Program-made: the position numbers and the translations under genes
NCBI RefSeq assembly: GCF_032118995.1
Contig: NC_092656.1
Location: 18,478,694-18,542,693, forward strand
Length of the DNA: 64,000 nucleotides
Origin: Asterias amurensis
Taxonomy: Eukaryota > Echinodermata > Asteroidea > Forcipulatida > Asteriidae
Direction of reading: 5' to 3'
Shown here: one piece after another, positions 23,701-64,000 of the stretch
How the letters are laid out: each line of letters opens with the position of its first letter
Position numbering within the stretch: the first letter of the stretch is position 1
The notes under the pieces: generated by a model
Databases searched by the model: none
What the model saw: the letters and a program-made list of their open reading frames with translations, nothing else
Told to the model about the DNA's origin: nothing

Positions 23701-26700
23701 GGCCATATGTGAGTTGAGTTGTGCGTTGGTTCTCTGCTGTGCCACGAGGGTTTTTCTCCCTCAGGGAAAAATCAAACACTTTCGATCTTGGCTGTGCTCG
23801 GTGGTCATAATGGGTTGATTGTGGCTGGCAGCCAAAGGCGCCCTTGCATGCCTGCTTCTCGAATACGTTGTAGCCGTGTCTTTCGCAATTCAGCTCTTAG
23901 CTGCGATTAAGGATGATTAGCCCCCTTAAATTATTATTATTTAATATTATGAAATGTACTCTGATTGTTAAAATTTCTTTGATCTACGTTTTACACATAG
24001 TCTGAGTGAGACACTGAATCTGCACAACCATTCACTTTAAGCTGAACTGTGTAAACTTCCTTGAGAATTGATAACTATGTATCTTAGTGTGAGGCTCTTT
24101 GTCTAGTATCACCATACTCTCTCCTTCCCTGTCTTTGATACTTACAGATCCACATTAATCAATGAATTATTACCAGAGCTGAAGACATCAGTTAGTCAAC
24201 TTCGTAAGAAAGTCAGCGAAGGGAAAACACCCAGCAGGAAAGATACACTCAAGTCTTTTCAGCTCAGTGTAAGTTACAAACAATTCAATTCCCCTAATCT
24301 AATCCTTGCAAATTATGATTGGAAAAGAGTAAACAATTTTGGTTTGTATTAATTGGTTCACCCATACACCGATGTGTGTTAGCACTGTATACTCAGTACT
24401 TTCCAAGTCCTGTAAAAAAATATCACAGGTGGGATTGGAACCCACGACCCTTGCAATTCTAGAGCAGTGTCTTACCAACTAGACTACCGAGGTTGGTTTG
24501 TTGTTTATTCTTATTGTTGTTATTGAGTTATGAATTATACCCCCTCTCCCTACAAACTACTTGGAGTTCGATAATAAGACATGACATCACAGCAGAAAGA
24601 TATTCTGTTTTCTTAGCATTCTTAGAATTCTTTGATTTGCCGCATAAAACTCATCGCATAAGACAATGACTTCAAACAAAACAAACTGTACACTAAGAGA
24701 GATTTTTCCTAACCGATTCTATCAGATTACCTGTTTGTCAATTCAAAGCCAGAATTTGAAACTTTGCATTGTGGAAGTATAACTAAGAGAGGTTTTGCAG
24801 TAACACCATGTGAATAACTCTTTTGAGTAGTGTTGGTTCTACTATTCAAAAGAGATTTTCACATGGTGTTACCGCAAACCTCTCTTCGCAACCCAAAGCT
24901 ACTTGATATGTTCTTAATCTTTAGGTCTAGACTAACTGCCCCCTACTCCACCCGTCTCATTTGAACCTGCCGCTGTGAGGTCTCAAGATGAAACACCTTC
25001 AAGGCTACCTGCTGCAGGATCACTCAAGATAACCTGTTTGATAACCTGTTTGATAACCACTTGATATGTTCTTAGTCTTTAGGTCTAGACTTACTGCCCC
25101 CTACTCCACCCGTCTCATTTGAACCTGCTGCTGTGAGGTCTCAAGATGAAACACCTACAAGGCTACCTGCTGCAGAATCTCTCAAGATAAATACATCTAC
25201 AGGTAGTTATTTTGTTTTTGTCCGAGTCCTTTGTTTTACTTATTTTGGTCAGCACAAATAACATTATCAGTTAAACAACAGTCATGTTTTAAGTATTGTA
25301 ATACATACAATTTCAATTTTTAAAGCGCAAGTTTTGACGTAATACTATTGTTACTCTGGAATCTTTCACATGCTTTTTAAGAATAGCAGTTGTATTTATT
25401 CTGGTTGGGTTATCCTGTTAAAATTAAACCATAAATAACATTGAATTAAATTTGTGATTTTCCCACCAGATACTCCAGAGGCTGTGTCCATGTTAAGTGA
25501 AACCATCAATAAAGATGCGCTTAGACACGCTGGACTGATACAAGGAACACCAACAAGCATGCTTGGAGACCTAAGGAAACAGACCAATGGGTGAGACACG
25601 CCATGTAGCTATGCGTTTTTTTATCTAGTCCCCTACCATGTAAGGGCAGTTGATCAGCCAGTTAGTCAGGTCAGGTCAGGTCAGTCAGGTCAGGTTGGTC
25701 TGGTCGCATGGTCAGGTCAGTTGGCAATGTTGACAATGTCAGGTCACGTCAGTCAGGTCAGTCGGTCAGGTTATGTTAGTTGTTCAAAGCAGGTATAGGT
25801 CAGCGGAAATATCTACTTAAAGGCAGTGGCCACTATGGTAATTACTCAAAATAATTATTGCCTTAAAACCTTTCTTGGTGATGTGTAATGGGGAGTGGTT
25901 GATGGTATCAAACATTGTGTGAAACGGCTCCCTCTGAAGTGCCATAGTTTTCGAGAAAGAAGTAATTTTCCACGGATTTGATTTTGAGACCTCAGATTTA
26001 GAACTTGAGTTCTCGAAATCAACCATCTAAACGCACCAAACTTCGTGTGGCAATGGTGTTTTTTCTTTCATTATTATCTCGCAAGTTCGATGACCGATTG
26101 AGCTCAAATTTTCACAGGTTTGTTATTATTTTTATGCCTATGCTGAGATGTACCAACTGTGAAAGCTAGACTTTGACAATTACCAGTAGTGTCCACTGCC
26201 TTTAACAACTTTCTGCTTTCTGCGAGAACTTTAGTAATATGTTGTTCGTGTATCATTGTATTTTGGCTAGTAACCTTATACTGAATGTTTGTTATTACAG
26301 CCCATCCAAGCTACCCATCCCAATAGGAACAACATACCCAGAGACCACCCACCACCGCAAGAGAGTTAAATCAGCACCATCTAAAGTGGTACCCACATCA
26401 ACCCATTCAGCACTACATACCCCATTCAGGCACCTAGGTACCCAAGCAACTAATGCCACCCAGATCAATGGTACTGCATCCCATAAGAAGGGTGTGAGAG
26501 TGGGTAAGATGGAGCGAGATGTGACCCAGGGGTACAAGACACAACCCAGGAAGGGGGCTGAGAGTAGAGTCAGTAGAGGAATGACGGATCATAGGAAAGA
26601 GGACTTGAAAGAGGAGAAACCATGGAGACGAAAGAAAACATCCAAAACAAAGGTTTGATGCCCTAATTGAAATATGTGGGAGTAATTCAATTCATTAGAT

Positions 26701-29700
26701 CAGAAATTTGTTCAGTCAAATTAATTTGTACGGCCTGAGTGCTTAAAATGTTGTAATATTTTGGTAACTAGCACAAATTAAAAAAAATACTTTTTACAAA
26801 AAAGTTCCATTTTTAAGAACATAAACACAAATATGTCAGTTATTTAGGGTTACATTTTTGAAGAAATGTGCAGCCATTATGGAATTTTACAGGTTAGATG
26901 TGTGATATGCCTTTTGGAAACTTAAGAATTTGAATGAATTCTTTTAAAAAAAGTAATAGCTGTGACCCTAAAGTTGTACTGCATTTACTCTGCCTTGAAG
27001 CCAACAATTCTAACTGAGTTTATTATTGATCAACTCTTTGACTCATCAGATATCACGTCATGATGAAACATCCCAATCTCTATCATCACATACACCAGTA
27101 GCTTCTGCAATAAAGAGAGATGTCATGTCAAGCGCCTTGAGGTCTAAGACTACACCTAGAGCTCATCAATTACTCGTGGATCAGGTCAGAGGTCATCCAT
27201 ATTTTAGTTTTATTTTCAACTTTCAATCTTATAAGCAGAAAATCTCTCTTTTATTATTACACAGGGGATAAGGAGTTATAAGCTGGACAAGTTTGTTAAT
27301 TATTCAAAATATACATTAACATTAAAACTGACTTAGTAACGAGCAACTAAGAGCTGTTGATAGTATAAAACATTGTGAGAAACAACTCCCTCTGAAGTAA
27401 CATAGTTTTGGAGAAAGAGGTAATTTCTCACTAAAATATTTGAATCTAAAAATACTTCAAGCCTGTGAAGTCTTTCTCAGGCATCTGAAAGCACACAGAC
27501 TTTTGCAACAAGGGTGTGTTTTCTTTGGTTATTTTCTTGCAACTTAGACGACCAATCAAGACCAAATTTTCACAGATTTGTTATTTTATGCATATGTTGA
27601 GATACACCAAGTCAGAATACTGGTCTTTGACAATTACTTAGCGTGTGACTGTCCACTGTCCATTGCCTTTAAGACAGATGGTCTTAAAGAATGGTTTTGT
27701 TCTTCATCCTTTTCTTCTTGCTTTGACAAATAGATTGCTGATGCAGTGACGGATGGAGGGAATATAACACCAGACTTCTTGGAAATGTTAAGGACTCAAT
27801 CAAAAGAGAACACTCCTCTAGATTTGGCTCTTCAGGATCCTGTGGCAGGATTAGGTGAGTCAAGTTTCATATAGTAGACTATAACGGCTTGAAAAATCTC
27901 AAGCATGAGAGAAAGTATAGTTTGAGTACAGGTTTTGTTGAAGATGAATTTAATATTGTTAGAAAGAAATATGAAATGCAAGCTACAAACAAAAAATAGA
28001 GTATTTTTGTTTGTCATCGCCTGTTTATGGGGACATGAAAGGGCTAATATTATATATATATTTGTACTTCAGATCAAGAGGCTTTTATCAGCAAAGATAA
28101 GTTGGCGAGAACTCCTGTTTTAGATGAGAGTACACTTGGCACCCCAAGGTCATTGGATACCCCTCAAGACAGGCTCCCTAAAACACTCTTTGATTCAGAC
28201 TCAAGCCCTGATGTCCCTACAAGCCAGAGGAGAGAACCTATGGGTGCTACAGATACACACGAGTCCCAAGAACGAAGCCTTGAGGGACACAGCGTACACA
28301 TTGGTAATCTTCTTGACCTGGGGTCACCTGAGACCCAAGGAGAGACGTCGTTCCTGCCATCAAATCGTCTCCAGAACCATCTTCTTGATCTTGATATTGG
28401 AGTGTCACCAGCTCATGAATTTGATTCCCCGTTGCTTGTAAGGAGGCCAGAACTCTCTGAGGATCTTGAGCTAACCCTAGCTGAAGTATTCCAGACAAGG
28501 ACACCTCAGTTATCAACACGAGCAAAGACGAGGATTGCGGCTCACAAGCAGAAGGAACCACTTCCAAGTTTCAAAGAGGACGATGACATGACTTCATCCA
28601 CACATGGAACTCCACTAACACTTCACAGAGACACTGATATTATTGAAGGGCTAACCCCAAATTTAGATGTGATACGTCAAGATAGGATTAAGAGGCAGAA
28701 ACAGACAAGAACTCAGCAACCACAGGCTCCGGATCCAACGCCCTCAGCTGAATTGAGTAGCAGTAAGGTTCGGCAAGTAAGTGGTGGCTCACAAAAGAGT
28801 GTAACTTTCTCTGATCATGTTGACCAGCAGAGCTTTAATATCAGTGACTTTAGCCCTGACCGGTCAAACGTTGATATGACGCCACCGAATGACCAGGAAT
28901 CAGTTGATGACCCTTATGTCCAGGCAGGACAGCCAAGGCCGAGTGGCTACTCAATCCTTGGAATGGCCAACAATGGATCAATTGAAGAACACCGAAGCCC
29001 AGAGAAAGCTACCAACACATTCCTGAGTGAAGTTTATCTTGCACACTCCCCTCCCCCACAGGACAGACCCAGTGAAGGACTCTATGCAAGCCCTTTACAA
29101 TCTGATCTTCTGTCAGATTCTGACCTAGGTCAGGATTATTCCATGAACCTCTCCAAGGCCATGGATGATCTCCTGGTTTCTATTTCTCCCGACATCACTC
29201 CTTCTAGGACCCCAAAGCTCAATGCGAGACACTCCTCAAACTGGATGCAACAGCAGAGAAACTCTGTGACTCCACACAGGGATAAGAATAGTTCCTTGGT
29301 CGAACCTTCTTTGAATCAGACAGATGATTTCATCAAGATGACATCTGGAACTTCACCGCTGCTACAGGAATTGTCCAATTTACATCTGTCTAGAGTGTCT
29401 GGTACCCAGTCCTCTTTCACATCAAATCGGTATACACCTGATACCTCAATGAACTTTGGTCTGCTAGGTGAGTATTTTTGTTGTTGATTTGTTTGAAGAG
29501 GGAATGATAATGTGCATACCCAAACTACGACTCCTCATCAATTCCTAAAATCAGTCTTTCTAAAGCCGATAGAGTACCATGTGAAACAGTGCATGTTACT
29601 AAAAAAAAGTTACTTTACAATTCCAACACTAGACTTTGTCAGTTCTGTAATTTAATTTGGAAATCTGTTTAGAAAGCTGTAGATATTTTGAACTGTAAGA

Positions 29701-30251
29701 GGCTCAGTTGTCCCCTTGATGTGCTTCTTAAAGCCATTGGACCCTTTCGGTACAGAAAAAAAAAAAAAGGTCACAGATTCACAAATAACTTACAGGGTTT
29801 ACAGAAGGTAATGGTGAAAGACTTCTCTTGAAATATTATTCCATGAAATGCTTTACTTTTTGAGAAAACAGTAAAACAATATCAATTCTCGTTAACGAGA
29901 ATTACGGATTTATTTTAAACACATGTCATGACACGGCGAAACGCGCGGATACAAGGGTGGGTTTTCCCGTTATTTTCTCCCGACTCCGATGACCGATTGA
30001 GCCCAAATTTTCACTGGTTTGTTATTTGATATAGAAGTTGTGATACACGAAGTGTGGGCCTTGGACAATACTGTTTACCGAAAGGGTCCAATGGCTTTAA
30101 GCATTAATAGCAATCATGAGACAGTTTGATCGATTTAAAAAATGTTTTCTTTCTTGTCTCAAATACAGATGAAGATGATTCTATTTTGCTTCCAACCTCG
30201 CCAGCTCTTGGTCAAGGAATCCTAGTAGATATTGATTCTCCTTCAATGTAG
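17781..30251 (+). CDS. HAUS6: HAUS augmin-like complex subunit 6
   Basis: HAUS6 is part of augmin, which recruits gamma-tubulin to spindle microtubules for branching nucleation. Seventeen coding exons: 17781-17926, 18683-18778, 19118-19199, 19592-19721, 20168-20339, 21709-21904, 22258-22431, 22778-22880, 23162-23252, 24148-24266, 25083-25202, 25470-25590, 26301-26652, 27050-27184, 27734-27854, 28073-29467, 30169-30251. All phases match and the sum is 1211 codons plus stop (human 955 residues). Conserved marks are LLLGFEP near residue 30, SLFMSPGG near 121, the coiled-coil region about 190-350 with IQKLRELWKTVDSF, NVGNTYEGGQLNL, and LLPPTPPVSFEPA at about 439-451. The large exon 16 (465 codons) is low-complexity and full of Ser/Thr-Pro, as expected for the disordered, Cdk/Plk1-regulated tail. 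The start is the only ATG giving the conserved N-terminus; a TTATTCACAG acceptor at 17711 suggests an untranslated first exon further upstream. Exon 10 must use an unusual GTGTAAGT donor. Confidence 0.93.
18195..18672 (+). mobile_element. Non-LTR retrotransposon 3' end in HAUS6 intron 1
   Basis: Encodes the C-terminus of a CR1/L2-like reverse transcriptase: LIIFKILQGDAPAYLSDL, LRSTKHKLL, SFQSAAPKLWNSLPD and TFKNSLKTHFHREAF, ending at a stop (18534). The 3' UTR ends in an ATT microsatellite directly before the exon 2 acceptor. Confidence 0.9.
19398..19470 (+). mobile_element. tRNA-derived SINE head
   Basis: TGGCTCAGTTGAGAGAGAGC and GCAGGTTCAAACCCC match RNA polymerase III A and B boxes at the right spacing. 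The acceptor stem does not pair, so it is not a tRNA gene. HAUS6 intron 3. Confidence 0.65.
19845..19915 (+). repeat. Short degenerate tandem repeat
   Basis: About three copies of a 24-base unit around GGCTTTGCCTGCTAAGC in HAUS6 intron 4. Confidence 0.6.
20385..21180 (-). mobile_element. LINE 3' end and degenerate LINE-like sequence
   Basis: On the minus strand TTGTAAAGCGCTGTGGTACC, AGAGTGCTCAATAAATTACG and a TTATTATTATTAG tail look like the 3' end of a CR1/L2-type LINE. The rest to about 21180 is unassigned; it may be degenerate LINE sequence, but I see no clear protein match. Confidence 0.5.
21271..21656 (-). mobile_element. Family A foldback element, copy 3
   Basis: Full length, reverse orientation relative to copy 1, in HAUS6 intron 5, ending about 50 bases before exon 6. 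Its left end reads TAAAGGCAG after a C, so only TA is shared at both ends. Confidence 0.92.
23620..23925 (+). mobile_element. tRNA-derived SINE, near full length
   Basis: GCATGGTTGGCTTGTAAGTA and CCCCGGTTCGATACCCAG make a tRNA-like head; a ~200-base body (GTGCCACGAGGGTTTTTCTC, GGTCATAATGGGTTGATTG) follows, ending near TTAAATTATTATTATTTAA. HAUS6 intron 9. Confidence 0.75.
24360..24500 (-). mobile_element. tRNA-derived SINE, second copy
   Basis: Same family as 55440-55605: minus-strand GGTAGTCTAGTTGGTAAGAC and GGGTTCCAATCCCACC. In HAUS6 intron 10. Confidence 0.82.
24783..24896. mobile_element. Foldback element, family F, short copy
   Basis: Arms AGAGAGGTTTTGCAGTAACA and TGTTACCGCAAACCTCTCT with an inner inverted repeat ACTCTTTTGAGTAG. 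It lies in HAUS6 intron 10, directly before the duplicated exon 11. Confidence 0.8.
24898..25057 (+). pseudogene. Dead duplicate of HAUS6 exon 11
   Basis: A near-identical copy of HAUS6 exon 11 with its upstream splice acceptor (TTCTTAATCTTTAG, exon copy from 24925) lies 158 bases before the used exon (25083-25202). Read in the HAUS6 frame, the copy has TAA where the real exon has TTA, giving LD-stop instead of LDLLPP. The copy also lacks a clear 5' splice site: its end changes to AAGATAACCTG followed by two more copies of GATAACCTGTTT. Inclusion would truncate HAUS6 near residue 438, so it is either inert or a poison exon. Confidence 0.85.
25650..25790 (+). repeat. GTCAG-rich simple repeat
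   Basis: Irregular runs of CAGGT and GTCAG in HAUS6 intron 12, just after exon 12. Confidence 0.8.
25817..26205 (-). mobile_element. Family A foldback element, copy 4
   Basis: Full length, in HAUS6 intron 12, ending about 95 bases before exon 13. It keeps the inner ATTTTGAGACCTC / GAGTTCTCGAAATC arms. Confidence 0.92.
27281..27673 (-). mobile_element. Family A foldback element, copy 5 (old)
   Basis: Strongly diverged copy in HAUS6 intron 14. TATAAAACATTGTGAGAAAC and AACTCCCTCTGAAGTAACAT match the family, but the terminal repeats are degraded (GTCCACTGTCCATTGCCTTT on the right). Confidence 0.75.
29728..30100 (+). mobile_element. Family C foldback element, copy 1
   Basis: Ends TTAAAGCCATTGGACCCTTT and AAAGGGTCCAATGGCTTTAA, in the last HAUS6 intron. 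Inner part contains TCTCGTTAACGAGA and a segment like family A (GACCGATTGAGCCCAAATTT), so families A and C are probably related. Confidence 0.9.
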
Positions 30252-30420
30252 CTACGACAGGAGGGGTCAATCAATCAATCACATCACATCTATATTGGAG
30301 CTGCCTCCAACCTCAACAGCTCTAAGTCAGGGGAATCCTAGTAGACATTGGTTCTCCTTCAATGTTGCTACGACTGGAGGGGTCGATTAATCCCATCTAT
30401 TGGAGCTTTATTCAACCAAT
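30191..30420 (+). repeat. Tandem duplicate of the HAUS6 last exon and 3' UTR start
   Basis: The end of the last HAUS6 exon, starting TCCAACCTC at 30191 and running through the stop into the 3' UTR, is repeated from 30306 with a period of 115 bases. The second copy has TTG where the first has the TAG stop (30249-30251), and one inserted G upstream changes its frame. The second copy lies in the 3' UTR and is presumably untranslated. Confidence 0.85.
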
Positions 30421-37396: not shown

Positions 37397-40300
37397 ATGG
37401 CAGACGAAAATCAGTTAGATTTGTCATCTTCGGCAAGTTCAAGTCAGACTTCTGATCAAAAGTAAGTCAAATGTGTTATTCTGTGTGTGTTCCGTTCTAT
37501 GCATTGTAGCTGTGTAATTTATAAAGTATGTCTAGTGTTCGATCGGTTCATTCAACTTCATCACATGATGAGGCACACATAATAATTTTTAATGACATAT
37601 CCACAAGCAAAATCAATTTTGTGTTGTGTACATTTTGTTATTGACCAGTTGCGATATTATTTATTTATTTGTTCTTTCAGTAGTGTAGGCATGGTTTGGT
37701 AGGCATAGCTAGCTAGTAGGGAAAAGTGTCCGTATGGCGCCACCACTTTTTTTATTAGGTATGAAATAATATCTTTTTTTTACTTGCACTTTGTCTAGCA
37801 CCAGTTGAGTTCCAGTTGTTTTGTCTTCATCACCTTCTGTTTCTTCAGTTTTGTTTTTGTTAGTTAGCACTTTTGTGTCCGATCTGCACTGCATCAACAA
37901 TCAAGCACCCCTGGCCTTACGTCCTCACTTGAGGATTCTGCTGAGTATCGACGTAAACTTATAGTATCTAATTTACATTCAAATTGAGGCTCAGACAATG
38001 AGGAGATATCCCTTTTGTAAAAATGAGTGAAAAAGTGGTGACGCCATACAGAAAGTTATCCGCTAGTAGCCTAGAGTAGTACTACTATATAGACATGTGT
38101 AGTTGGGATCCCCTTACCCTTGCTTGGCCTCATAACATTTCTTCCCGCTGTGAACCTTCGGCAAACAGCATGCAAGGAGGGTTCTGATCTTCACAAACTT
38201 GCTACCTACCTACGATTGTACGATACGAGTTCGACACAGTTATGGCAGGATGACAAACAATGAAATATTGCAAAATGTTTGTCGTACAAAACTGTTCTTA
38301 CTATTTATTGTGTTCCACTTTTCAATAGGTTAAATATGCAACAAGAAGACAAACCTGCCAACAAATGTGACTTCAATGACAGGCCAAATATTGTTGAAAT
38401 GAGAGGTAAGGTTTTTGAAGATTAAACTTGGAGTTGTTATGGTAAATAGTTGCAATTTTCAGAATTTTTTTTTGATTGAGTTATGATTAAAACGACCATC
38501 AGGCAAAGATTCCAAATCTGACTACTATCTTTTCACTCACAAGTCATAGGGGCCTATTTACCCAATTCACCTGACGCCATCATCAGAATAATCTTGGAAC
38601 CGCCATACTGGTGGGCAATGTAACTGTGCGTTATTAGTAGGCCCTAAAGTACGCATTTTAGGCGGCACGGCATTTACGTGTAATTTTATTGACCACCAAA
38701 ATGGTAAGGCACAGTCAGCCCGTGTAACATGCGTGCAAGGGGTCAATAGGCCTACCATTGAGAAAGAGGCCTATAGACCTTATGCATTGACGTCATCCAA
38801 TCGCCATCTTTGAGGTCAAACGGTGACGAAACAATCGAAACACACATAGATTGGCCAATGAACAACCTCCTTTTGACCTCGAGGCGAGGGCGCCGTACTG
38901 AAATGACGTCATGTGCATAAGGTCTATAGGTCTACATTGTTACCCAATCTTAATTACAATGACCCCTTGTACTGTGAGAATGACAATGGTGTTGAAAAAA
39001 AGAGCTGTATGCATCGTTATATAATGTACCACACCAGCTCTCATGAATGTCTAATGCTTACCAGCTTATTTCTGTATGTTTCATCAGGAATGAAATTAAA
39101 ACTTTACTTTATTCTTTACTGAATTTGTATTTTTGTTTCCTTTTTTCAGAGGCTCAAGGTATCAAGTACAACTGGGTCGATATCACCGAGGAATTCACTG
39201 AAGCAGCATCTCAACTTGAGATGGGGGAACTCTTACATGATGCAAAGTAATGTACCCAGTTATTGGTACCCAGAAACCCATATCCCAGTAGGGGATTAGG
39301 GTGAGGGTGGCTAGAGAGGAATTCACTGAAGCATCATCTCAACTTGAGATGGGGGAACTCTTACATGATGTACCCAGTTATTTGTACCCAGAAACCCATA
39401 TCCCAGTTATTGGTACCCAGAAACCCATATCCCAGTAGGAGCTTAGGGTGAGGGTGGCTAGAGAGGAATTCACTGAAGCATCATCTCAACTTGAGATGGG
39501 GGAACTCTTACATGATGCAAAGTAATGTACCCAGTTATTGGTTCCCAGAAACCCATATCCCAGTTATTGGTACCCAGAAACCCATATCCCAGTAGGAGCT
39601 TAGGGTGAGGGTGGGTAGAGAGGAGTTTGCTAAGCAGCATCTCAACTTGAGATGGGGGAACTCTTACATGATGCAAAGTAATGTACCCAGTTATTGGTAC
39701 CCAGAAACCCATATCCCAGTTGGAGCTTAGGGTGAGGGTGGGTAGAGAGTATTTTGCAGTATTTCAAGTTGAGCCAGAGGAGGAATGGTTGTTTGATCGG
39801 AATGTCTGGGATTGGGATTACATCCCTTCTCACCTAGCATGTAGAAACTATAGTTTTTTCTTTCTTTCTCTACCCTAGCTTTGGTTTATTTGAGGCAATG
39901 TCCGCCATTGAGATGATGGACCCTAAGATGGATGCCGGAATGATGTGCAACCAAACTGGACGTCAAGTCATGGGTATGGAGCAGTCAATTCAACACAGAG
40001 GACTCAAGATTAAAGACTTGTCTCCGGATGAGGTCATTGGGATCATCGATAACACTCTTGCTTGTATTGTAAGTATCTCTTAGCAAGTCTCAAGATGGTA
40101 TGGGAGTGGGTAAGAGATGGAACAGTCGCCAAACAATGAGTTAGGACCAAAGAGGACTTGGTACCTCAAGAGATTATTGATAGCACTCTAGCTTGTCTTG
40201 TAAGTATCTCTTAGCAAGTCTCAAGATGGTATGGGAGTGGGTAAGAGATGGAACAGTCGCCAAACACTGAGTTAGGACCAAAGAGGACTTGGTACCTTAA

Positions 40301-43300
40301 GAGATTATTGTCAACACTCTAGCTTGTCTTGTAAGTATCTCTTAGGCTCAAGATGGTAGGGGTCAGGGAGTGGGTAAGGGATGAAACAGTCGCCTCGCAC
40401 AGAGTAAGGAACAAAGTCGAGCTATTTGGTATACAGGCGTTAAACTCTCAGATTCTTATGTTGAAAGTACCATTTTGTTTCTACAAATTAGCTAAACTTA
40501 AACTGTTCAAAGTTTGCAAAGATCTGTTTGATCAATTTGGTTTGAAAAGAATGGATTGGACGGAAAAAATTAGGTGAGGGGGCTGGGATTGAGTTGGGAT
40601 CGAGTGGGGTGGCAGTTGTGTCTTAATTAATCTGAAGAAAATCTGTTTAACTATGTAGTTAATTGAATTGGTGATTAGAAGTGCTATAGTGTTGTATTTG
40701 TTCTTACTCTGAAACCTTATTGCGTTCAACTGTTTCTGTTTCAGGCTACATGGTTAGAAGGTCATTCTCTTGCCCAGACAGTCTTCACCAATCTCTACAC
40801 TCATAATCCTGATCTTATAGAGGATCGATGTACTAGAGCTTTCACATTAGCCGCTCTCAAAATAGTAGATATCATCAAAGATAAAGTAGTCAGAGCTTCG
40901 GTGTTTGAAGAGGTAAGACCAGCGGCCGATTTCACGAAACGCTAAGATTAATCCTAACTCAAGTTAGGACGAGTAACCCGTCCTAACTTAGGATGGGTTT
41001 AATACGTTCTACGTATTTGAATACGGAATGAACCCGTCCTAGCTCCTAAGATTAATCCTAAGTTAGGAAGAGTTTGGTGAAATCGACGGCAGGGCTCATC
41101 AGCCAAACCTTCCAGGGTCTAGGAGGGAGAATGTGTTTGTTATAACACATCTGAATATGGGTTGAAGTTTGAAATTTCCCCGAAAGTAAATCTCCTATCT
41201 ATTGATGGGCACTTTGAACTGTGAATAGAATTTGACGTACCCACAAGGGTTTTTATTACAGGGCTAAAATTACCCTTTAGTAGGGTTGTGGATATGGGGT
41301 TGGACATTCACCATCAGAGATTATGGGTATGGGGTTGGAATTGCCCACTTGGGTTTTTGACATACCCATAGCGTCAAGCAGAGTGTAATGAATACTAATA
41401 TTATCAGACTCAATCTCACAGTGATTCCCTTTTTACAGATTGCGATTTTACAATTCTCTCTCCCGAGAACCTTTTCACTGACACCTTTAAGTTATTTAAT
41501 TTATGTCAGTCAATCTGTGCTAGGATTAATCTAACCTTATGTGAATTTTGACAGGAGGATTTTCAGTCCATGACGTATGGGTTTAAGCTCGCTCATAATG
41601 TGACAGATCTAAGAGTAGCTGGAATGCTGAGAGAAGTAGAGGAAGAATTCAACAGAAGGATTAAGGTCAGTTCAAGAAAAATATTGAACAGTTATCTGAA
41701 TATATTGATATATGATCTTGGACCGGTAGTAACCACATAATTATCAACATATTCCCAAATTCTTCTTAAACTCCTGTAATGTCTGACAGTAATGAGACAC
41801 TGTGTAACTATGGCAATGTCAGTTTTTAAAGACAGTGACAAAGTTGATATTCTCTTGTGTTTCTCAGAGTACGAGAAGCAGACAAGGAGAGGTGAGAGAG
41901 CCAGCAACTGAGCAAGAGGTAAGAGTGAAATAACTTTATAAAATGACTTCTTTGGTTTGGGCCATTTCAAGAAAATAAAGTTACAGTTCATTTATTTATT
42001 TATTATTACTGGTTTATTAAAAATGCAAACATGGCGGCCAAAAAGCAGAATTGCGGATGCATATACACAAAGAGTAAAAATACAACAATTATTACTAACA
42101 GTCTACCGTAAAACTACCGTAGTGAAGAAGTTGTTTCTGTCGTAGTCCAGGAGTGGATTTCAGCCGTTAAGACTAGACTTAGTTAGGTCGAGTTACCTAA
42201 CTTCAGACTAGCCTTAAGTTTCTAATAACTTCTAGTTCCTAAATAAGGACTGTCTTTGTTTAACTGACCTAGGGATATTTATTGTACTTGTACTTTCAAA
42301 TAAAGTACTAAATAATAATATGTTTATCAACTTTATTTGTTTGAATTTGATTGCAGCATGAGCAGTGTGTTGCCGTTCAGTGTCGAATAAAGTTCATCAG
42401 AATGTTTTACACGGCACTCTTGGCATTAAATAAGAAAGAGGTAAGTTCAAGATCCAATCAATACAAGGACAATGAGAGTTGATATTGTTTATAAACAAAC
42501 TTGTGATTGATAGTAATTTGGAAGCTACTCTCTGCTTGTTCTATGCAATGTTCAAAAGACCAAACTTCTAGGCCATGTGTTCATAATTCATTGTGGCTAT
42601 GTCAAATAAAGACAGTGGACACTATTGGTAATTGTCAAAGACTAGCATTCACAGTTGGTGTATCTCACACTGTGCATAAAATAATGAACCTGTGAAAATT
42701 TGAGCTCAATCGTACATCGAACTTGCCAGATAATAATGAAAGAAAAAAACACCCATGTTACACGAAGTTGTGTGCGTTTAGATGGTTGATTTCGAGACCT
42801 CAAGTTCTAAATCTGAGGTCTCAAAATCAAATTCGTGGAAAATTACTTCTTTCTCACAAACTATAGCACTTCATAGGGAGCCGTTTTTCACAATGTTGTA
42901 TACCATCAACCTCTCCCCATTACTCATCACCAAGAAAGGTTTTATGCTAAAAAAAATGTTTGAGTAATTACCAATAGTGTCCACTGCCTTTAAGTTGCTG
43001 CTTCCTAAAACAGTAATAAAAAGCCAACTTCAACAGATCTAGCCCTTATTCACTCAAGTCCGACATTGCTAAAGAGCTACGTTGTGATTTCATCTTTGTT
43101 CGACTTTTGACCTTTGTTTTGACCTAGGTCAAGCAGGGTGTAGAGGAGGCAAGAAAGCTTCTAATCCAAGCCGGTGATCTCCTTCCTATAATCAAGAAAT
43201 CTATTCATCTAGGAATTCAACCCACTAAGTCGGACAGCCAAGGGGATCAAGAAAAAGCATCAGGTATTCTATACAAACAGTTTTATGTTTTATGCTCAAC

Positions 43301-46300
43301 TTCAATGATAACAACGGTTAACAAAACTTGAGTTACTTTTTTAACTATTTGTACTTGTCAAAGACTAGTCTTCACAGTTGGTGTATGCATTATTTACATG
43401 TATTCTTTACAAACAGTTTTATGTTTTATGCTCAACTTCAATGATAACAACGGTTTACAAAACTTGAGTTACTTTTGTTTTTCTTATAATTTGTTTTACA
43501 ATTGTAACTTCTTGTAGATTTACCATTAATCATGGGTTTTGAGCCGCTTGTCAACCAGAGATTACTTCCTCCAACCTTCCCTCGATACTCCAAGATTATC
43601 GATCGTCCAGCTGCAGTCAAATACTTTGAAGGTCTCATAGTTCGATTAAAATCTGTTTGTGAAGTCACAAATCTCAGCGCCTTCCATGCTATTATGGTAA
43701 GAATGTTCTCAAATATTAAGAGTAGATTCATGAAAATCAAATTCTTTGTTATGTTTGTTTGTCCTTCACACTTCATCAAGTCAAATAATACTATCACACC
43801 ATGCCATAAACACGGAGGCAAACCCCTTCTCTTTACGATAAAAGCACTTGATTCTTTTACGAGCATAACACAACACACAGGACCTACAGCTTTACGTCCT
43901 TTGCAAAGGACGAAGCATCATGGTTAAGTGTCTTGCTCAAGGACAAAACTGAGATGTGAACCCACACTCTACTGATCAGAAACACAAGAGCTCAAGTCAA
44001 GTGAGCTAGACTGCTCTACCTCAGAATGCCACATATATCAATCAACTAATTATACTTGTGTTGTTTTTTAGTATTTTGCTCCGTGCAGAAAATTGGCTCA
44101 GAAAATGAATCCCTCTTCATGATCCACAGCAGTCAATCATGTGATGTGATATTTTCACCCAACTCTTGAGATGTATCTTTCATTTATCACTTTCTTATTT
44201 CTGATTGACATTCTTGTCTAATGTTTCTTTCATTATTTTTTATTTATTTCAGGATATGATTGGTGAATTCAGTAAACATTGTCCCTGTGTCTTATCTCGT
44301 TCCATTCTCCAACTCATCTTCCTTCCGTTTAACAATAAGAAGGTATTTGGGACTGAGTTAGTTCAAGAGTCTCTACGAGACTGCGTCCGTTCTTTTGTGT
44401 ATCCTCCTGCCCTTATCCCAAAGTCACCGATCTACAACAACCCTCAAGTTAAGGAGATGGTCGATTCGTTGTTACTGCATGCCGTCAGGGTACGTTGTTA
44501 ATCAGAATAATAATAATGGCTTCTTATATAAAACTTATATCCATCACATGGTGGCACTCATAAGGCACTTTAACATTCAGTATTTTCCTGCAAGGTTTTA
44601 TAGAGCTAGTTTTTCAAGTATGAGACCAATTACATTACAAACCACCTTGTTATGGTTCACAAGGTGATGTGGCATACTATGCAACCAATCAAACTAGGAA
44701 CATCGCGGAAAACCCCTTCTCTTTACAATAAGTGCACTGGGTTCTTTAACATGCATTACACAACACACGGGATCAACCACTGTACATCTTATCTAAAGGA
44801 CACAACCCACACTCAGATTTTGAGTCCATTGCTCTTATCGTCATGGTAAGGGTTAGGGTCGGAGCCAAAAAGCCCCACAAGATAAAATCCCACTCAAAAC
44901 TGCTCCCAATCTAGTTCCTTCATAGTGTGTTGTGGTGCACTTCTTCGGAAAGGAGAGACATTGCTTATGGATTGGTGTAACTTTTGTTAAAATATTAGTA
45001 ACATTTTGCAAGTGAACGAAAACAAAATGTTTGTTTAGGTTTCTAGTCCCTATAAGTCATCAGGAAAGTTTTTTGGAAACGCAACTTCAATGGTTTTACA
45101 ATATTTTATTTTTCAGCCAATGTGTACCATAATTCAGATTCAAGGTCATAATCGAGCCAGACAGAGAGATAAACTTGGACAAGTCTTAGAAGAACTCTCC
45201 AACCTTCAAGATGAGGTAAAAACGTCAACAAGACACTCGGAAATATATGTGTTTATATTGCAGTTACAACACAACTAGACACCTGAAGTCAATTCCAACC
45301 CCCTCTCTCCTCTCTTGTCTCTTGGCAAAATTTTTGTTTTAAATTCCCACAATCCACACAGAAAATTCACCATCAATCCTCGACCAATAAAAGTCTGAAT
45401 CTGAATCTGAATTTAAACTGTATAATTGGCAAATCATCCCAATGGAAACACAACACCAATTTTGTTCTGATAATTCAATGAAGAAATTTCAGTTTTAGAC
45501 GTGGGAGAAAATCCACAGTATTAAAAGGCAGGGACATAAACCACTGAGCCAAGAACCGGGCCGGGCATCGAACCTGCCGTCGATTTCACAAAGAGTTACG
45601 ACTCGTCTTATCTCGAGTTAGGACGAGTAACTCTTCCTAACTTAGGATTAATCTTAAGGTCTGCATGCTACAGTGCAGGGTTGGGACTCGTCCTAAGACC
45701 TAAGATTAGTCTTAAGTTAGGAAGAGTTTTGTGAAATCGACAGCAGGGTCCATAGAGGTGAAAGGCAGGGACAGAAACCACTGAGCCAAGAACCGGGCCG
45801 GGCATCGAACCAGGGTCCATAGAGGTGAAAGGCAGGGACAGAAACCACTGAGCCAACCTGACTACCCTCGATGTCTGACTCTCTAACATTCAGAATGATT
45901 TTGCTTAATCTACAGGCAGAGAAAGTCGACGCTGGAGTTTTATCCTTCATGTCAAAGTCTGATCCTAAATGGCCTCATCAAGCTTGCTTTGGGAGCTGGG
46001 TTATGTACCATACGCTAAGAACCATGATACGTTATGTTCTCTCTGGGTTTGAACTTGAGCTGTATGCAACACATGAGTATCATTATATTTACTGGTGAGT
46101 AACTCTTTAGGCAACTTAGAATACATTAAAGATAGATAAATTGGTTAATAAAAGAAGACCGACTTCCACAATTTTTACATCTAAAAGTAATTACTCATCA
46201 TATAAAAACAGAGAAAATTAAACAAACAATTCCTACTTATTACAAGAGAAATGGGTACCTGTGAGGGTAGAAATGGTTCTTGTGATTGATATACCTTAGC

Positions 46301-48307
46301 AGCGCATATTTGTTGCACAGGCTGTATACTCCCCAGGGAGCTGAGATGGTTTAAGGAGTGATTTAAGGCCCAACGACCAGGGGTGGTAATGTTGGCAGCA
46401 CTTTAAGAAGCCCTTCGCTTCGGGTGTGAAAAGCACCGTAGAAAAACTTGTTATTATTATTATTCTTATTATTGCTGATTTGACTTTTTGTGTGTCCTCT
46501 CATTCCCATTGTGTATTTACCTCAGGTATCTGGCCGACTTTCTGTATGCATGGTTTATCTCGACAGTCACAAGAGCAGATAGTATGCTACAAGACAATGA
46601 GGCTGCGTTTACTGAACCTGCAGCTAAAAGCAGGAGCAACAAGAAGAAGAACAAGCGACGTAAGACACGACCGTTTGAACGAGAGCTAGCAATAGCCCAG
46701 GCTTATCAGCTGTTGTGTTCTGCCTATTATAAGGTACTTAGCGTTTGAACGAGAGCTAGCGATAGCCCAGGCATATCAGCTGTTGTGTTCTGCCTATTAT
46801 AAGGTACTTGGCGTTTGAACGAGAGCTAGCGATAGACCAGGCGTATCAGCTGTTGTGTTCTGCTTATTACAAGGTACTTAGCGTTTGAACGAGAGCTAGC
46901 GATAGCCCAGGCTTATCAGCTGTTGTGTTCTGCCTATTTAAAGGTACTTAGGGTTTGAACGAGAGCTAGCGATAGCCCAGGCCTATCAGCTGTTGTGTTC
47001 TGCTTATTACAGGGTACTTTATAAAACCAAATTAACTGGATATGTTCATCAAAGCTCTGGACAGTCAACACTTAGTCCAAGAGAGATAAATGCATGGTTT
47101 TCCCCAATTGCAGTAACTATCTCCGCCATGCAGTACACCAAATCCTACTTGAAACATTTCTGCTATAAATAGTTCATTCCATTTCATGACGTCAATACAT
47201 AACAAGAAGTCATGGGTTATGTTTCACAAAACTCTAATATTTATAACATTTTGTGCAGAAACTAAGTTGAATCATTGGATAAATTCAACTCGTATGAATC
47301 TGAGCCCCTGTTGAAAGATCAAACCCTGGCATAACCGAATAATTTTACTCATAAATTTATCTCGGAGATACAAAATCAAAACTTTGACTTCTTTTTATCT
47401 TCTGTACCCAGACGGTCATCGGTTTCACAATGGATGGCAAATTAAAACGACCCAACTGTACCTTTGATAATGAAAGGGTTCGCTTTGAGCATCGGTTCAG
47501 TGTCTTCAATGCCGTCTTGACTCCTCCTTTAGTGCAATATGAGACATTCTGTGAGATGACGGATATTCGTAAGATGGACCCTAATAGGACACCGCTAGAT
47601 TTGTTTTACACGGCGTATAAACTCTTCATGCAGTCATCGTCAATGCTAGAAAAGATCCCCAACCAGACGCCAGAGGTAGGTTGCCTGGACTCTTTTCAAA
47701 TTGTAATGTTCTTTATTGATACAGGGTATTGCATGGCAACGATCCTGCAAGATTTAAAATGGCAGTTTACGAAGGAGTCACCACTCTTTTGATCTCTGTG
47801 AAGTTTCAAACTTGTTCACTTAATCTTTGTTAATGGCACGTAAGTTTCCAACGTGTGAGAGCCAAACAAGCGACCGGCCAACTTAAAATTAAGTCATGAA
47901 ATATGATACTGCCCTGTATTGACTTGATGTCCCCAGGCCATGTAAAACACTCCTCACCGTGTTGTTATGTTACGTTTGAACATGGCTGGATGATCCCCTC
48001 TCGACCAATCAGAAGGGATAGACTGTCCTGGTCATGTATGAATATGGGAATAATGTGAGGTGAGTTATAATTTTGAATAGCGCATCTTAAAATGTGATGT
48101 GGAACATTTTGCTTCATACAACATTGTATGTTTATCACTTTATTGTTTCTTCTTTTTTATCAACAGTTGAGTTCGTTAATCCGTGTTGCTAAGACCAATG
48201 TAGTTGTCATCAAGCTAATGATGGGAGGTCACAAGAGAGAGTCCAAAGTCCCTCCTGAGTTTGATTTCAGCATGCATGGCATCTTCCCCATCATTAAACT
48301 AAAATAA
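37397..48307 (+). CDS. NAA35: N-alpha-acetyltransferase 35, NatC auxiliary subunit
   Basis: NAA35 (Mak10) is the large scaffold of NatC, which with NAA30 and NAA38 acetylates N-termini beginning Met plus a hydrophobic residue, on ribosomes. Sixteen exons: 37397-37461, 38329-38405, 39150-39246, 39879-40068, 40745-40912, 41555-41665, 41868-41918, 42357-42440, 43128-43263, 43518-43696, 44253-44489, 45117-45215, 45916-46094, 46526-46733, 47412-47675, 48167-48307. Phases all agree; 761 residues (human 725). Conserved blocks are [24 protein letters not shown] (exon 4), [42 protein letters not shown] (exon 10), [11 protein letters not shown] (exon 12), [17 protein letters not shown] and the end [15 protein letters not shown]. 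The ATG sits in a good context (CAACATGG) and precedes a weakly conserved acidic leader. Exons 3, 4 and 14 are each followed by tandem copies of their own 3' ends. Confidence 0.96.
37528..37681 (+). repeat. Third-site copy of the Ly6 B intron segment
   Basis: TGTCTAGTGTTCGATCGGTT, CAACTTCATCACAT, TGTGTTGTGTACATT and CAGTTGCGATATTAT match 35490-35625, with an insertion. In NAA35 intron 1, 2 kb away. Confidence 0.8.
37720..38061. mobile_element. Family B element, 342 bp, with 8-bp target duplication
   Basis: Ends GGAAAAGTGTCCGTATGG and CATACAGAAAGTTATCC, flanked by GCTAGTAG at 37712-37719 and 38062-38069. In NAA35 intron 1. Its interior differs from the other family B copies; only the arms are shared. 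Confidence 0.88.
38769..38932. mobile_element. Foldback element in NAA35 intron 2
   Basis: Arms CCTATAGACCTTATGCATTG + ACGTCAT and ATGACGTCATGTGCATAAGG + TCTATAGG form a 164-base foldback. Confidence 0.82.
39190..39750 (+). repeat. Tandem array of NAA35 exon 3 tail plus donor
   Basis: The last ~55 bases of NAA35 exon 3 (from GAATTCACTGAAGC) with the 5' splice site and the first ~80 intron bases are repeated three more times, starting near 39316, 39463 and 39620. Copies two and three keep the donor GCAAAGTAATG; the first lost it. A smaller direct repeat of CCCAGTTATTGGTACCCAG sits inside each unit. All copies lie in intron 3. Confidence 0.88.
40040..40400 (+). repeat. Tandem array of NAA35 exon 4 tail plus donor
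   Basis: The last ~25 bases of exon 4 with its donor (GTAAGTATCTCTTAG) and ~105 intron bases are repeated twice more. Donor positions are 40069, 40200 and 40331, an exact 131-base period. All three keep a perfect GTAAGTATCT, so two spare donors lie in intron 4. A weaker fourth piece fades out by about 40400. Confidence 0.9.
40926..41090. mobile_element. Family E foldback element, copy 1
   Basis: Arms CGATTTCACGAAACGCTAAG and TTTGGTGAAATCG, with several inverted copies of TCCTAACTTAGGA inside. In NAA35 intron 5, starting about 14 bases after the exon. Confidence 0.85.
42145..42240. mobile_element. Possible family E remnant
   Basis: GGATTTCAGCCGTTAAGACT and AGTTAGGTCGAGTTACCTAA resemble family E arms but the pairing is poor. 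In NAA35 intron 7. Confidence 0.4.
42607..42993 (+). mobile_element. Family A foldback element, copy 7
   Basis: Full length, in NAA35 intron 8. Ends TAAAGACAGTGGACAC and GTGTCCACTGCCTTTAA. Among the least degraded copies. Confidence 0.92.
43264..43482 (+). repeat. 80-bp direct repeats flanking a family A fragment
   Basis: ACAAACAGTTTTATGTTTTA to AACTTGAGTTACTTTT occurs at about 43271 and 43410. Between them lies CTTGTCAAAGACTAGTCTTC, a piece of family A. NAA35 intron 9. Confidence 0.82.
43860..44035 (-). mobile_element. SINE-like element, copy 1
   Basis: Contains AGTGTCTTGCTCAAGGACAA and GTGAACCCACACTCTACTGA, shared with 49020-49220. NAA35 intron 10. Orientation is judged from the B-box-like sequence only. 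Confidence 0.55.
44640..44870 (-). mobile_element. SINE-like element, partial
   Basis: AAACCCCTTCTCTTTACAAT, CATTACACAACACACGGGAT and CAACCCACACTCAGATTTTG match parts of the elements at 43800-44035 and 49020-49220. NAA35 intron 11. Confidence 0.5.
45525..45870 (-). mobile_element. tRNA-like SINE, duplicated and split
   Basis: Minus-strand TTGGCTCAGTGGTTTCTGTC and GGTTCGATGCCCGGCCCGG occur twice, with a third partial copy, around a family E insertion. NAA35 intron 12. Confidence 0.65.
45577..45745. mobile_element. Family E foldback element, copy 2, in a SINE
   Basis: Arms GTCGATTTCACAAAGAGTTA and GAGTTTTGTGAAATCGAC. It splits a tRNA-like SINE whose sequence (CCACTGAGCCAAGAACCGGG) resumes on the right. 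Confidence 0.85.
46290..46470 (+). mobile_element. SINE/LINE 3' end with TTA tail
   Basis: GGCAGCACTTTAAGAAGCCC, TGAAAAGCACCGTAGAAAAA and a TTATTATTATTATTCTTATT tail. NAA35 intron 13. Confidence 0.55.
46671..47020 (+). repeat. Five-copy 70-bp array of NAA35 exon 14 tail plus donor
   Basis: The last 62 bases of exon 14 with the donor AAGGTACTT form a 70-base unit starting at 46672, 46742, 46812, 46882 and 46952. Only the first is exon; the other four lie at the start of intron 14. Three of the extra copies keep AAGGTACTT. The last copy ends TTATTACAGGG, which resembles a 3' splice site. As 70 is not a multiple of three, use of a downstream donor would shift the frame. Confidence 0.92.
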
Positions 48308-48316
48308 CTCTCTAAA

Positions 48317-48465
48317 AGTTAATGAGGGTTCATTAGTGACTGTTAATGACTGCCCTAGGGTTAAGTTAATGAGGGGTCATTAGTGGTGACTGTTAATGAC
48401 TGCCCTAGGGTTAAGTTAATGAGGGGTCATTAGTGACTGTTAATGACTCCCTAGGGTTAAGCCTT
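48317..48465 (+). repeat. ~50-bp tandem repeat in NAA35 3' UTR
   Basis: Three copies of a unit containing GTTAATGAGGGGTCATTAG, GACTGTTAATGACT and CCCTAGGGTTAAG begin ten bases after the NAA35 stop codon. They are almost identical, differing by short indels. Confidence 0.85.
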
Positions 48466-49019
48466 GCTTATTGTGTACAATACTCAGATGCGATTTTATG
48501 TTTTTTATTAATAGATAAAGTGTTCTAATCTAGTCTAATCTATTTTGGAAAAACCTCCACATTGGACTTTTGAAACAATTATTTGCAGTATTAAGTTTGT
48601 CCTAAGATCTTCAATATTTAAGATTAGACTTCCTTCAGTTCCATCGAACAGATTAATCCTCCCATATTATTTTGAACCATCAAATCGCATCTTACAATTA
48701 GCAGGGTGGTTCTGAAATAAGTGTACAGTCTTGTGAAGCATAGTGCATGCTTCATTCATATGTAAAAAGATGGCAAGTAAACAAAAACAAAAAGTTTCAG
48801 TCAGACTTTTCTGATAACAAGTAGTTGATAACTATAACATAAAGTATTTTTAAAGCACCAACAGTCTAGTTCACTATTCTGAGGTGCAGTAAGTTAAAGA
48901 TGAAGGTATGCAAACTGTTTGAATTATCATACCCATTTATGTACATGTAGAACCTTTTAAAGGTAGCCAATGTGCTGCACTGCATGCAATCTGCAAGCAA
49001 TCTGCAACAAATGCCACCA

Positions 49020-57662: not shown

Positions 57663-58835
57663 CAGAAAGAAAACAAGACAACAAGACAACAATCTGTGAA
57701 TAATCATTGTTTGTGTATACACAGAAAGGACAATAATTTGTAGTACTTTAAAGAAATATCTGCATAAGGTTCTGTATCAACCTTGAACTCAATGAAGACT
57801 GTATGGTTTACAGTGGAGTAATGGCATGTACTATTTCAGGCCTGGGAATAAGGATGATCTAGACTCTCTGTACCTCCTTGTGAGGCTGTCTCAACATCAA
57901 CTGACTCTGGCTATAGCTATGGCTATTGCCAATGGCTGCAGTCGCAATGATGAAGAAAAGGTCATTCTAGCAACAAAGACATAGCCACTCACACTGCCAA
58001 AGCTGTTAGACAACACTGGATGACCTCTGACCTATCTTCCTAGCTATCGTTATTTGCAGGAACTGTAAGCATCTGAATAGTTTCTAGGATGCTAAAGATG
58101 TATGAAGTGATTGTACAACAACTACGTGATCATGTCATGGTACTACGAGTCAAGTCAGACGTGATCACTTTAGTAAATATCAAAATATCTAATTATTCTA
58201 TCAATGTTTAATGTAGAAAATGATTGATTGAATATCAATTTATCGATTGTTTTGCAACCACTCAGCACCTTTTACTGTATCCACACCTGTCACTATCTAG
58301 GCACAAGGACTGCTACTAGAATTAGCATAGTCATGAATATTCAATGTGCTATCATGGCTTAGTGTCAAATTCATGAATAATTCATGAATTGTGCAGTTTC
58401 TCACTTATCATGGCCAATTCATTAATAACTCATTCCATTTTGGAAGATGAATAATTCAGTATTTTTCAATGACTAAAACACTGACTTCCCACACATGAAA
58501 AATTTAAAAGATTCTTAATCCACTTTGTAAATTCATTTGTAATTCATGAATAATTCATTTGGTAATGCATGAATAGTGAATAATTCAGTATAAGCCTAAT
58601 TAGTTGCATATTCAACTCATGAATATTGATGCACAATTTATGAATATTTCATCAAAAGCCAATGGTGTGAATACAGATTAAAAAACACCATTTTACTCAA
58701 TTTATTCCAATAATAAGAATTAGTCATTGAATACCAAACATCAAAAAAGTCTTGCACAGATTTGAGTCAAATTCAACAAATATGCACTGAACATTTATCA
58801 CATACATAATATACATATATATGTTCACCATTTCC

Positions 58836-58836
<1 letters not shown>

Positions 58837-58868
<32 letters not shown>
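58837..58868. repeat. CAA microsatellite
   Basis: About ten uninterrupted CAA units, in the predicted 3' UTR or downstream flank of the receptor gene. Confidence 0.95.
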
Positions 58869-58928
58869 CCCCGAAAATATATACTTCTCTGTTTGCTCGA
58901 CGAGCACTTATCTTAAAGTGACACCATT

Positions 58929-61900: not shown

Positions 61901-64000
61901 AAAACCAGGCATGATAGTTGGTCCTTGGAAAAAAAGTAGGAAATCTTCTTGAGTTCAAGGGCTAACATAACGAAATGACTCGGTGAAAAAGGCAGGATTT
62001 TTGGTGCTAGGAAAAAAAAGTTGGAAAATCTTCTACAAGGGCTGCTGATTATTCCTAAGGAGTAGGGTTTACTGGACTTTTGGGCTAATTAATCACAGTT
62101 TTTCTAATTTTTCCAAGGTAAAAAAAAACGTCTGTAAAACTTACTTCATAACCGATGCTTCGTTTAAGAATTCAATGCGATCCCGTATTGATGCATTAGC
62201 CTGTACAGACTTGACAGCAACTGTTGAGACGTCTTCTTCAGGAATGATCTTCTTAGCGTGGCCTTCGTATACCATACCAAAGCTACCTTTACCGAGCTCA
62301 CAGATGATATCCAATTGGTTCCTTGGAAACTCCCATTCATCAGCAACGTACACTGTCATGGAAACAAAGTCAACAAGCAATTTAGATCAAACTCAAACTC
62401 ATCAGTGACATGCACTGTCATGGAAACAAACTTAACAATCAATTAGACAGGCATTGTCATGGAAACAAAGTAAACAAACAGTTCAGATCAAGAACTTCAC
62501 CAAAAAAAAAAAAATTTTACAAAATGTTTTTGTACATTATTTTTAAACTTTGAATGGTAAAACTGAGAATAAAAAAGAGGAAATCAGCTGATCCGAGGAA
62601 AATTTGCGTGTCTGTCCACACTTCTCTATTCCCCGACCTTGGATAAATTATTAATAATAAATTTAGTTGGTACTCACTGTCACTGGTACTCATATATTCA
62701 GGATTGACGGAGGCATACAGGACACCATCAGGCATCTGGTTCTTCTTGTACCTGATAAGAAACAACAATCGATTAATATTCATTCCATAATCATTCCTTG
62801 TGGTTTGTATTGATAATCAATACCAAGTGACAACAACTTTAAATGATTATTAATTATCAAAAATAAATTGACTAAATTATTTTTTTAAGACAATGTTGAA
62901 ATGTTCAGCTGCATTCCTAATTGCGGCTTTATCTACGGCTACAGCTGTTGCTAAGAGTGTATTTAAAGACATCCTATACTTCAACACATTACCCACCCTT
63001 AGCTGTAGCCAGAGCCAATTCAAACACAGCCTACTATTCACTAATGGCAAAGATTATAGAGCGCCACAAGGCGCAAGATGCGGAACTGAAGCTTTATCTA
63101 TTGTTGGAACGTGAAATACGCATGGGCGCCATTTCAGCAAGTGAATGTTTTGTTTCCCATTGATAGGAATGGTCATTGTCTGCACCGATCTGCACTGAAC
63201 TACTGTTGTATCAAAAGAGTTACTCGCCGAAATGGCGTCCAGTGGGATTTCACATTTCAGCCCGAGTTCCCCATCTCGCCCCTTGCGGCGCTCTATAATC
63301 TTTGCTGATAGTAAATCTTGACACTCTGTTTACTTGACTTGATGCCCAGTTGTCTTACCTCCATCTAACCAGTAACCATATGAAGAATACCAAGATGATT
63401 ACTACAGCAAAACACACACCAATAGTAGCGCCCATTGCACTCAGACCCGACTCTTTATCATCTAGTTTCTCTGAAACGTCAAAAAGACAAGTATCAATGT
63501 TTCTACATCCTCAGTCTCAATTCTATAAACACAAAACTAGCAAAAAACTACAAACATAAACAATCCTGGAGCTTCCAGGACACCAGACAAGCAAGGGACC
63601 TGGTTGATTTCACAAAGATAGTCCTAACTTAGGACTAATCCGAGGAATCTTAAAGTTGTTAAAGAAACGTGTCGCTAGTGCTAAGTTTAACTCGTCTTAA
63701 CTCGAGATAAGACTAGAGTCTTAACTGTTTGTGAAATCCACTCCCGGACCAGCCAGCGACCTAAACCAAGGACCAAAACCAGCCAGGGACAATCTCAAAA
63801 CACGAGTACAGGTAGCTAGACAGAAAACAAAGATGGCTGCTAAGGGATTCCACTCACCTTTAAGAGGTTCAGGAACATTGAATAAAACCGGTTCAGTCCA
63901 TGGTCCTTCTCCAGCGAGTGAGATGACTCGGACTCTAGCCGTATAATTCCCTGGATCTAAAGCTTTCAATTCGTACCCTCGATCCTGGAGAAACTGATGC
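58929..64000 (-). CDS. Insulin/IGF1-receptor-type tyrosine kinase, 3' half (partial)
   Basis: This is the membrane and kinase half of an insulin/IGF1 receptor homologue, which binds insulin-like peptides and signals through IRS/PI3K. Eight minus-strand exons: 63858-64000 (cut by the window edge), 63359-63470, 62678-62751, 62145-62352, 60254-60398, 59697-59986, 59448-59582, 58929-59265, all in phase. In order they encode the end of the last FnIII domain ([19 protein letters not shown]), the transmembrane helix, a juxtamembrane NPEY docking motif ([11 protein letters not shown]), the glycine loop [11 protein letters not shown] with VAVK lysine, [16 protein letters not shown], catalytic [11 protein letters not shown], and the activation loop [14 protein letters not shown] with the three-tyrosine pattern diagnostic of this family. 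HRDLSARN replaces the vertebrate HRDLAARN. The C-terminal tail is about 80 residues and ends IGKVTEC. An AATAAA on this strand at 58701-58706 is about 225 bases past the stop. The ligand-binding half is outside the window. Confidence 0.95.
60881..61206 (-). mobile_element. Family A foldback element, copy 9, internal deletion
   Basis: Reverse copy in a receptor-gene intron, about 60 bases shorter than full length: the segment between CGACAACCGCAGG and the right terminal repeat is missing. Confidence 0.85.
61502..61882 (+). mobile_element. Family A foldback element, copy 10
   Basis: Full length, same intron as copy 9 but opposite orientation, 296 bases away. Two inverted copies in one intron could pair in the pre-mRNA. 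Confidence 0.92.
62325..62490 (-). repeat. Tandem copies of a 3' splice site in the receptor kinase gene
   Basis: The start of the kinase exon 62145-62352 with its acceptor (TTTCCATGACAG on this strand) is duplicated 62 bases upstream, including at least 25 exon bases, and a third, shorter copy (TTTCCATGACAATG) follows 39 bases further. The copies lie in the intron before the exon. The second copy keeps an AG acceptor-like sequence (CCATGACAGTGC). Confidence 0.75.
63031..63313. mobile_element. Foldback element in a receptor-gene intron
   Basis: Arms GGCAAAGATTATAGAGCGCC (63046) and GGCGCTCTATAATCTTTGCT (63287) extend with mismatches for about 50 bases. It lies 46 bases downstream of the transmembrane exon. 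Confidence 0.82.
63603..63741. mobile_element. Family E foldback element, copy 3
   Basis: Arms TTGATTTCACAAAGATAGTC and CTGTTTGTGAAATC with inner CGTCTTAACTCGAGATAAGA. In the intron before the transmembrane exon of the receptor gene. Confidence 0.8.

Follow-up and report, generated by a model that had tools for sequence, protein, structure and literature searches.

Tandem arrays that span exon ends in three neighboring genes of the starfish Asterias amurensis probably arose by ordinary local tandem duplications, independent of one another, by which introns already in place grew longer, and they are not robustly more frequent at exon-intron junctions than expected by chance. The arrays were analyzed in a stretch of 64,000 nucleotides (C9:18478694-18542693; hereafter, the window) of a genome that totals 491,506,623 bases over 23 contigs. 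The genes concerned are HAUS6 (17711-30251, + strand), NAA35 (38329-48307, + strand), and a receptor tyrosine kinase gene (from 58929 to past the end of the window, - strand) that reads as putatively of the insulin-receptor type. An initial annotation of the window had reported six arrays, each on an exon end or splice site, and had considered this number of matches to exceed chance.

All six arrays were verified by self-alignment, by Tandem Repeats Finder (for those that this program lists), and by alignment of their copies. In HAUS6, an array at 24901-25190 (+) comprises two copies, with a period of 158 bp, of the acceptor and most of exon 11, and these are 95% identical over 132 bp. In NAA35, the donor of exon 3 is in an array of four copies (39188-39773, +; units of ~128-160 bp; 94-98% identity), that of exon 4 in an array of three (40041-40416, +; period of 131 bp; 79-95% identity), and that of exon 14 in an array of five copies of 70 bp (46672-47019, +; 90-96% identity). 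In the receptor-kinase gene, copies of an acceptor are 62 and 39 bp apart and 77-80% identical (62351-62491, -). Each of these five arrays contains a splice junction. The sixth, in the last exon of HAUS6 (30187-30392, +; period of 115 bp; 86% identity over 91 bp), begins 18 bp past the acceptor and spans the stop codon (30249-30251), and the junction attributed to it is therefore absent. Two further arrays that hold a splice junction had been missed: a second receptor-kinase acceptor array (63977-64323, -; period of 100 bp, four copies), of which positions 63977-64000 are in the window and the rest are in positions 1-323 of L010, the 10 kb directly after it, with the used acceptor just beyond the window end; and an intronic duplication beside NAA35 exon 9 (43261-43476, +; offset of 136 bp), which is marginal in that it overlaps the exon 9 donor by just 3 bp (exon end at 43263). 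A uniform scan of the window adds further arrays without a junction.

The copy that adjoins the exon body is the coding copy in each of the five junction arrays first reported. In NAA35 exons 3, 4, and 14 it carries the first donor (used after 39246, 40068, and 46733, respectively), and in HAUS6 exon 11 and the receptor kinase it carries the last acceptor. The remaining copies carry decoy sites. Intact decoy donors follow 39521 and 39677 in the exon 3 array, where one copy is without a donor, 40199 and 40330 in the exon 4 array, and 46803, 46873, 46943, and 47013 in the exon 14 array. The use of any of these eight donors would end the NAA35 protein at residue 56, 123, or 607 of 737. The NAA35 frame itself is intact over its 737 amino acids, and residues 28-736 align with human NAA35 (E-value of 1e-277), an alignment that takes in all of the NAA35 junctions named here. 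In HAUS6, for which 17 exons were called and a stretch matches human HAUS6 (E-value of 2e-15), copy 2 of the exon 11 array (acceptor before 25083) fits the reading frame and copy 1 contains an in-frame TAA, into which the copy-1 acceptor reads given the weak exon 10 donor that keeps the frame. A working second exon 11 was rejected on the basis of this stop. In the receptor-kinase gene, the acceptor at 62352 is used, a decoy with an AG is positioned 62 bp upstream, and an older copy 101 bp upstream has lost its AG; both upstream copies run into stops. HAUS6 exons 1-4, the L010 exons, and a number of splice sites were assigned by visual inspection.

Scored with a matrix trained on the window, the decoy donors equal the used donor or fall slightly below it. 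The introns beside the junction-array exons are at least 267 bp, and introns of this length or more reportedly rank as long in a human study of splice-site competition. In human data, the site nearest across the exon is favored when donors are near-equal in strength and the flanking introns are long (PMC9225289). These observations suggest a sequence of steps that starts with local tandem duplications with units of ~40-160 bp, which are present at ~1 array per 11 kb in the sampled stretches of this genome. Given the length of the arrays and the density of junctions, some of them span an exon-intron junction. A duplication at a junction would copy the exon end outward into the intron, and the copy at the exon body would stay in use since the first donor or last acceptor is the one nearest across the exon and would thus be favored by exon definition. 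The extra copies would become part of the intron, lengthening an existing intron at near-neutral cost and allowing the duplication to persist. Under this nearest-across-exon rule, outward copies of exon ends would be silent and therefore tolerated about as well as purely intronic duplications. The decoys are thus probably unused in the animal, and the duplications are probably neutral. The initial annotation proposed that concealment in introns lets such duplications persist, and this is consistent with the data, as the extra copies are on the intron side in each junction array.

The decoys could also be functional, with copy number tuning the share of transcripts that is sent to a premature stop and decay, in the manner of a splicing rheostat. 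Such a role would suit decoys that are intact, approach the used site in strength, and, where tested, lead to premature stops. However, the copies differ at 2-23% of sites with no visible pattern of constraint, and the site has been lost in one NAA35 exon 3 copy and one receptor-kinase copy. We consider a rheostat to be very unlikely.

The copied units combine the end of an exon with intron sequence. In the NAA35 introns after exons 3, 4, and 14 (632, 676, and 678 bp, respectively), the most distant intact decoy donor is 431, 262, and 280 bp from the intron start, and copies therefore make up ~39-68% of these introns. The distance from the end of these three arrays to the next acceptor is 105, 328, and 392 bp, respectively. 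Because the units comprise exon end and intron and the arrays end short of the next acceptor, existing introns grew; intron gain, with which the initial annotation had linked the arrays, was rejected since the duplicated unit is without the far splice site. Tandem genomic duplication is accepted as one way in which introns are gained, as in the AGGT model (PMC3443670). The starfish arrays resemble that model in that an intragenic tandem duplication places copies of splice signals in tandem. In the model, however, an exonic segment containing AGGT is copied and the new intron spans the interval between copies, such that the duplicated segment provides both donor and acceptor, whereas the starfish unit is an exon end with intron, the far splice site being located beyond the array.

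The initial annotation also proposed that the arrays arose independently, and this is supported by their different periods and divergence. Copies differ by ~2-5% in some comparisons and by up to ~20-23% in the receptor kinase; the duplication events therefore differ in age. In the exon part of the NAA35 exon 4 array, copies 2 and 3 are alike and copy 1 stands apart, whereas over most of the intron part it is copy 3 that departs from a sequence shared by copies 1 and 2 (overall copy identities of 0.95, 0.79, and 0.82). This mosaic points to an old duplication followed by a recent second one in a shifted register. Genome-wide matches to the units of the NAA35 exon 3 and HAUS6 exon 11 arrays are confined to the arrays themselves, and a dispersed element was rejected as their source. 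A foldback (inverted repeat) at 24785-24900, seen by eye and possibly a small transposon, ends where the HAUS6 exon 11 array starts.

That the arrays are artefacts of assembly, which the initial annotation had named as a finding that would undo its claims, has to be weighed because the evidence is at the level of the assembly rather than of reads. The assembly is probably the PacBio HiFi assembly of this species, made from fragments of ~15 kb, and a single read can thus span each array. Moreover, the copies differ from one another and the NAA35 exon 4 array is a two-step mosaic. An artefact is accordingly extremely improbable.

We then evaluated whether arrays fall on junctions more often than expected by chance. 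An array was counted if its offset was at least 40 bp, its length at least 40 bp, and its identity at least 70%; given this minimum offset, repeats of 22 and 18 bp were counted just via multiples of their unit. The null comprised random placement of every detected array relative to the listed junctions (76 in the window). When the maximum offset was 500 bp, 6 of 16 arrays in the window were on a junction when compared to 3.9 expected (P = 0.17), and the 10 that were not had gone uncounted in the initial annotation. With a mean array length of 284 bp and 76 junctions in 64 kb, ~4 junction arrays are expected at random. Consistent with this, 6 of the 76 junctions (7.9%) are inside arrays, which cover 7.1% of the window. 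When placement was restricted to gene bodies, 6 of 11 arrays were on a junction (4.8 expected; P = 0.32). Extension to the next 10 kb (87 junctions in total; offsets of up to 300 bp) yielded 7 of 19 (4.3 expected; P = 0.11), and requiring the junction to be at least 5 bp inside the array reduced this to 5 of 19 (4.2 expected; P = 0.41), although the latter rule also discards the receptor-kinase array at 62351, in which the copied AG and exon start are visible. The proposed excess over chance is therefore not supported in the window.

These results bear on the possibility that exon ends are hotspots of duplication, for example where splicing-linked structures or the junction sequence itself promote slippage or breakage, and that junction arrays are in excess for this reason. 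The point estimates in the region exceed expectation, but the main tests are not significant and the region was selected in the initial annotation for its junction matches. The hotspot was also evaluated in a sample of kinase loci elsewhere, which comprised 48 exons in 26 loci (43.6 kb) from 150 matches to a kinase profile in the genome. The exons were hand-picked before their DNA had been seen, with neighboring exons favored, and 93 of their 96 ends were called with a simple score; some calls look loose. Six arrays cover 3.6% of these loci, and 1 of the 93 called ends is in an array when compared to ~3.3 expected from this coverage. Counted by arrays, 1 of 6 is on a junction, which is below the expectation of 3.4. 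Among the raw match ends of the first 34 kinase exons, 2 of 68 are in arrays, which cover 4.9% of those 20 loci. Region and kinase loci pooled yielded 8 of 25 arrays on a junction (7.7 expected; P = 0.52) or, for arrays within 20 bp of a junction, 11 of 25 (8.5 expected; P = 0.17). Across the window and the kinase loci, random placement thus provides no supported excess at junctions. A literature search, with most subscription journals outside its reach, identified no title announcing that tandem duplications are overrepresented at splice junctions.

The single junction array among the kinase loci (L032:1-393; C19:3732880 onward) is built of a 22-bp unit, present in ~18 copies, and directly precedes a kinase exon with its acceptor at 419. 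This unit resembles a polypyrimidine tract followed by CAG and the first exon bases, and the array represents an amplified acceptor. Three other arrays end on the intron side of an acceptor: L010:8674-8805 (14 bp short), L041:2638-2930 (8 bp), and L043:194-381 (38 bp). An exon finder trained on the kinase exons overlapped, at the chosen cut-off, 14 of 35 known exons in the window, 5 of them exactly, and 4 of its 19 predictions were outside known exons. Retrained on all exons and applied to L009-L030 (220 kb in total), it placed 7 of 132 predicted ends in arrays, at an array coverage of 2.7%. Six of these seven were from one satellite in L028 with units that mimic exons, and the array at the real L010 acceptor was missed; the exon-finder results consequently carry little weight. 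The satellite (L028:1326-1697) has a 74-bp unit, and its units score as back-to-back exons in the simple exon finder.

Several observations weigh against chance placement and silent intron lengthening. At an identity cut-off of 85%, 5 of 10 arrays in the window are on a junction (P = 0.0488), as are 6 of 13 when the next 10 kb are included (P = 0.049), although these were the 2 of 23 P values across cut-off variants that fell just below 0.05, with the others ranging from 0.064 to 0.54. In the window and next 10 kb, 9 of 19 arrays are within 20 bp of a junction (4.8 expected; P = 0.029), a count made last, after the other tests, in a region chosen for its junction matches. Junctions inside arrays are more frequent in the window (6 of 76) than among kinase exon ends (1 of 93; Fisher P = 0.046), a difference that is in line with the higher density of arrays in the window. 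In HAUS6, the strong exon 10 donor (AGT|GTAAGT, at 24260-24275) breaks the frame into exon 11, and the exons join in frame only via the weak donor A|GTGTAA, which keeps it. Lastly, the interpretation draws on the genomic sequence of one assembly. The variants below 0.05 are a weak hint at most, and a mild bias is possible. We regard duplication hotspots at exon ends as unlikely, and the same holds for the milder form in which exon ends in the starfish lineage are truly prone to short tandem duplication (~1.5-fold). If such proneness were real, junctions would keep seeding intron growth along with a stock of intact decoys silenced by exon definition alone.

Clustering of arrays in this region is better supported than an attraction of arrays to junctions. 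The 64-kb window contains 15 arrays, whereas 120 kb of flanking sequence contains 11 and 100 kb from elsewhere contains 9 (Poisson P = 0.001 for the whole window). Within it, NAA35 (38329-48500) has 6 arrays in ~10 kb, where 0.9 are expected from the 220 kb of flanking and other sequence (Poisson P = 0.0004). Both P values are uncorrected for a place picked after it had been seen.

Genes of human segmental duplications are described as carrying internal tandem repeats at their exon-intron boundaries (PMC2812944), and the starfish arrays belong with repeats of this kind. In both, units straddle the exon-intron boundary of coding genes and are partly outside the mature transcript. The human repeats vary from one recent paralogue to another, and transcript evidence indicates that some of them form new introns, whereas the starfish genes look single in the region, their existing introns grow, and the arrays are known at the genomic level alone. 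The arrays are also like competing splice sites under exon definition in that one exon is flanked by multiple donors or acceptors of near-equal strength, but in that work (PMC9225289) site usage is measured, whereas in the starfish it is deduced from homology and the reading frame. The arrays, in which as many as five near-identical donors follow one another at a single exon, represent natural tests of splice-site competition. They also illustrate how a list of matches alone can create an apparent junction bias: by rough extrapolation, the genome would contain ~45,000 arrays, of which ~6,000 would be on junctions by chance.

Two further repeats were observed in the window. A dispersed element of ~100 bp at 30000-30105 has at least 40 further matches genome-wide (89-100% identity), and an 18-bp minisatellite at 1208-1762 comprises 26 copies and has an open frame in which DWVGIS-like units recur.

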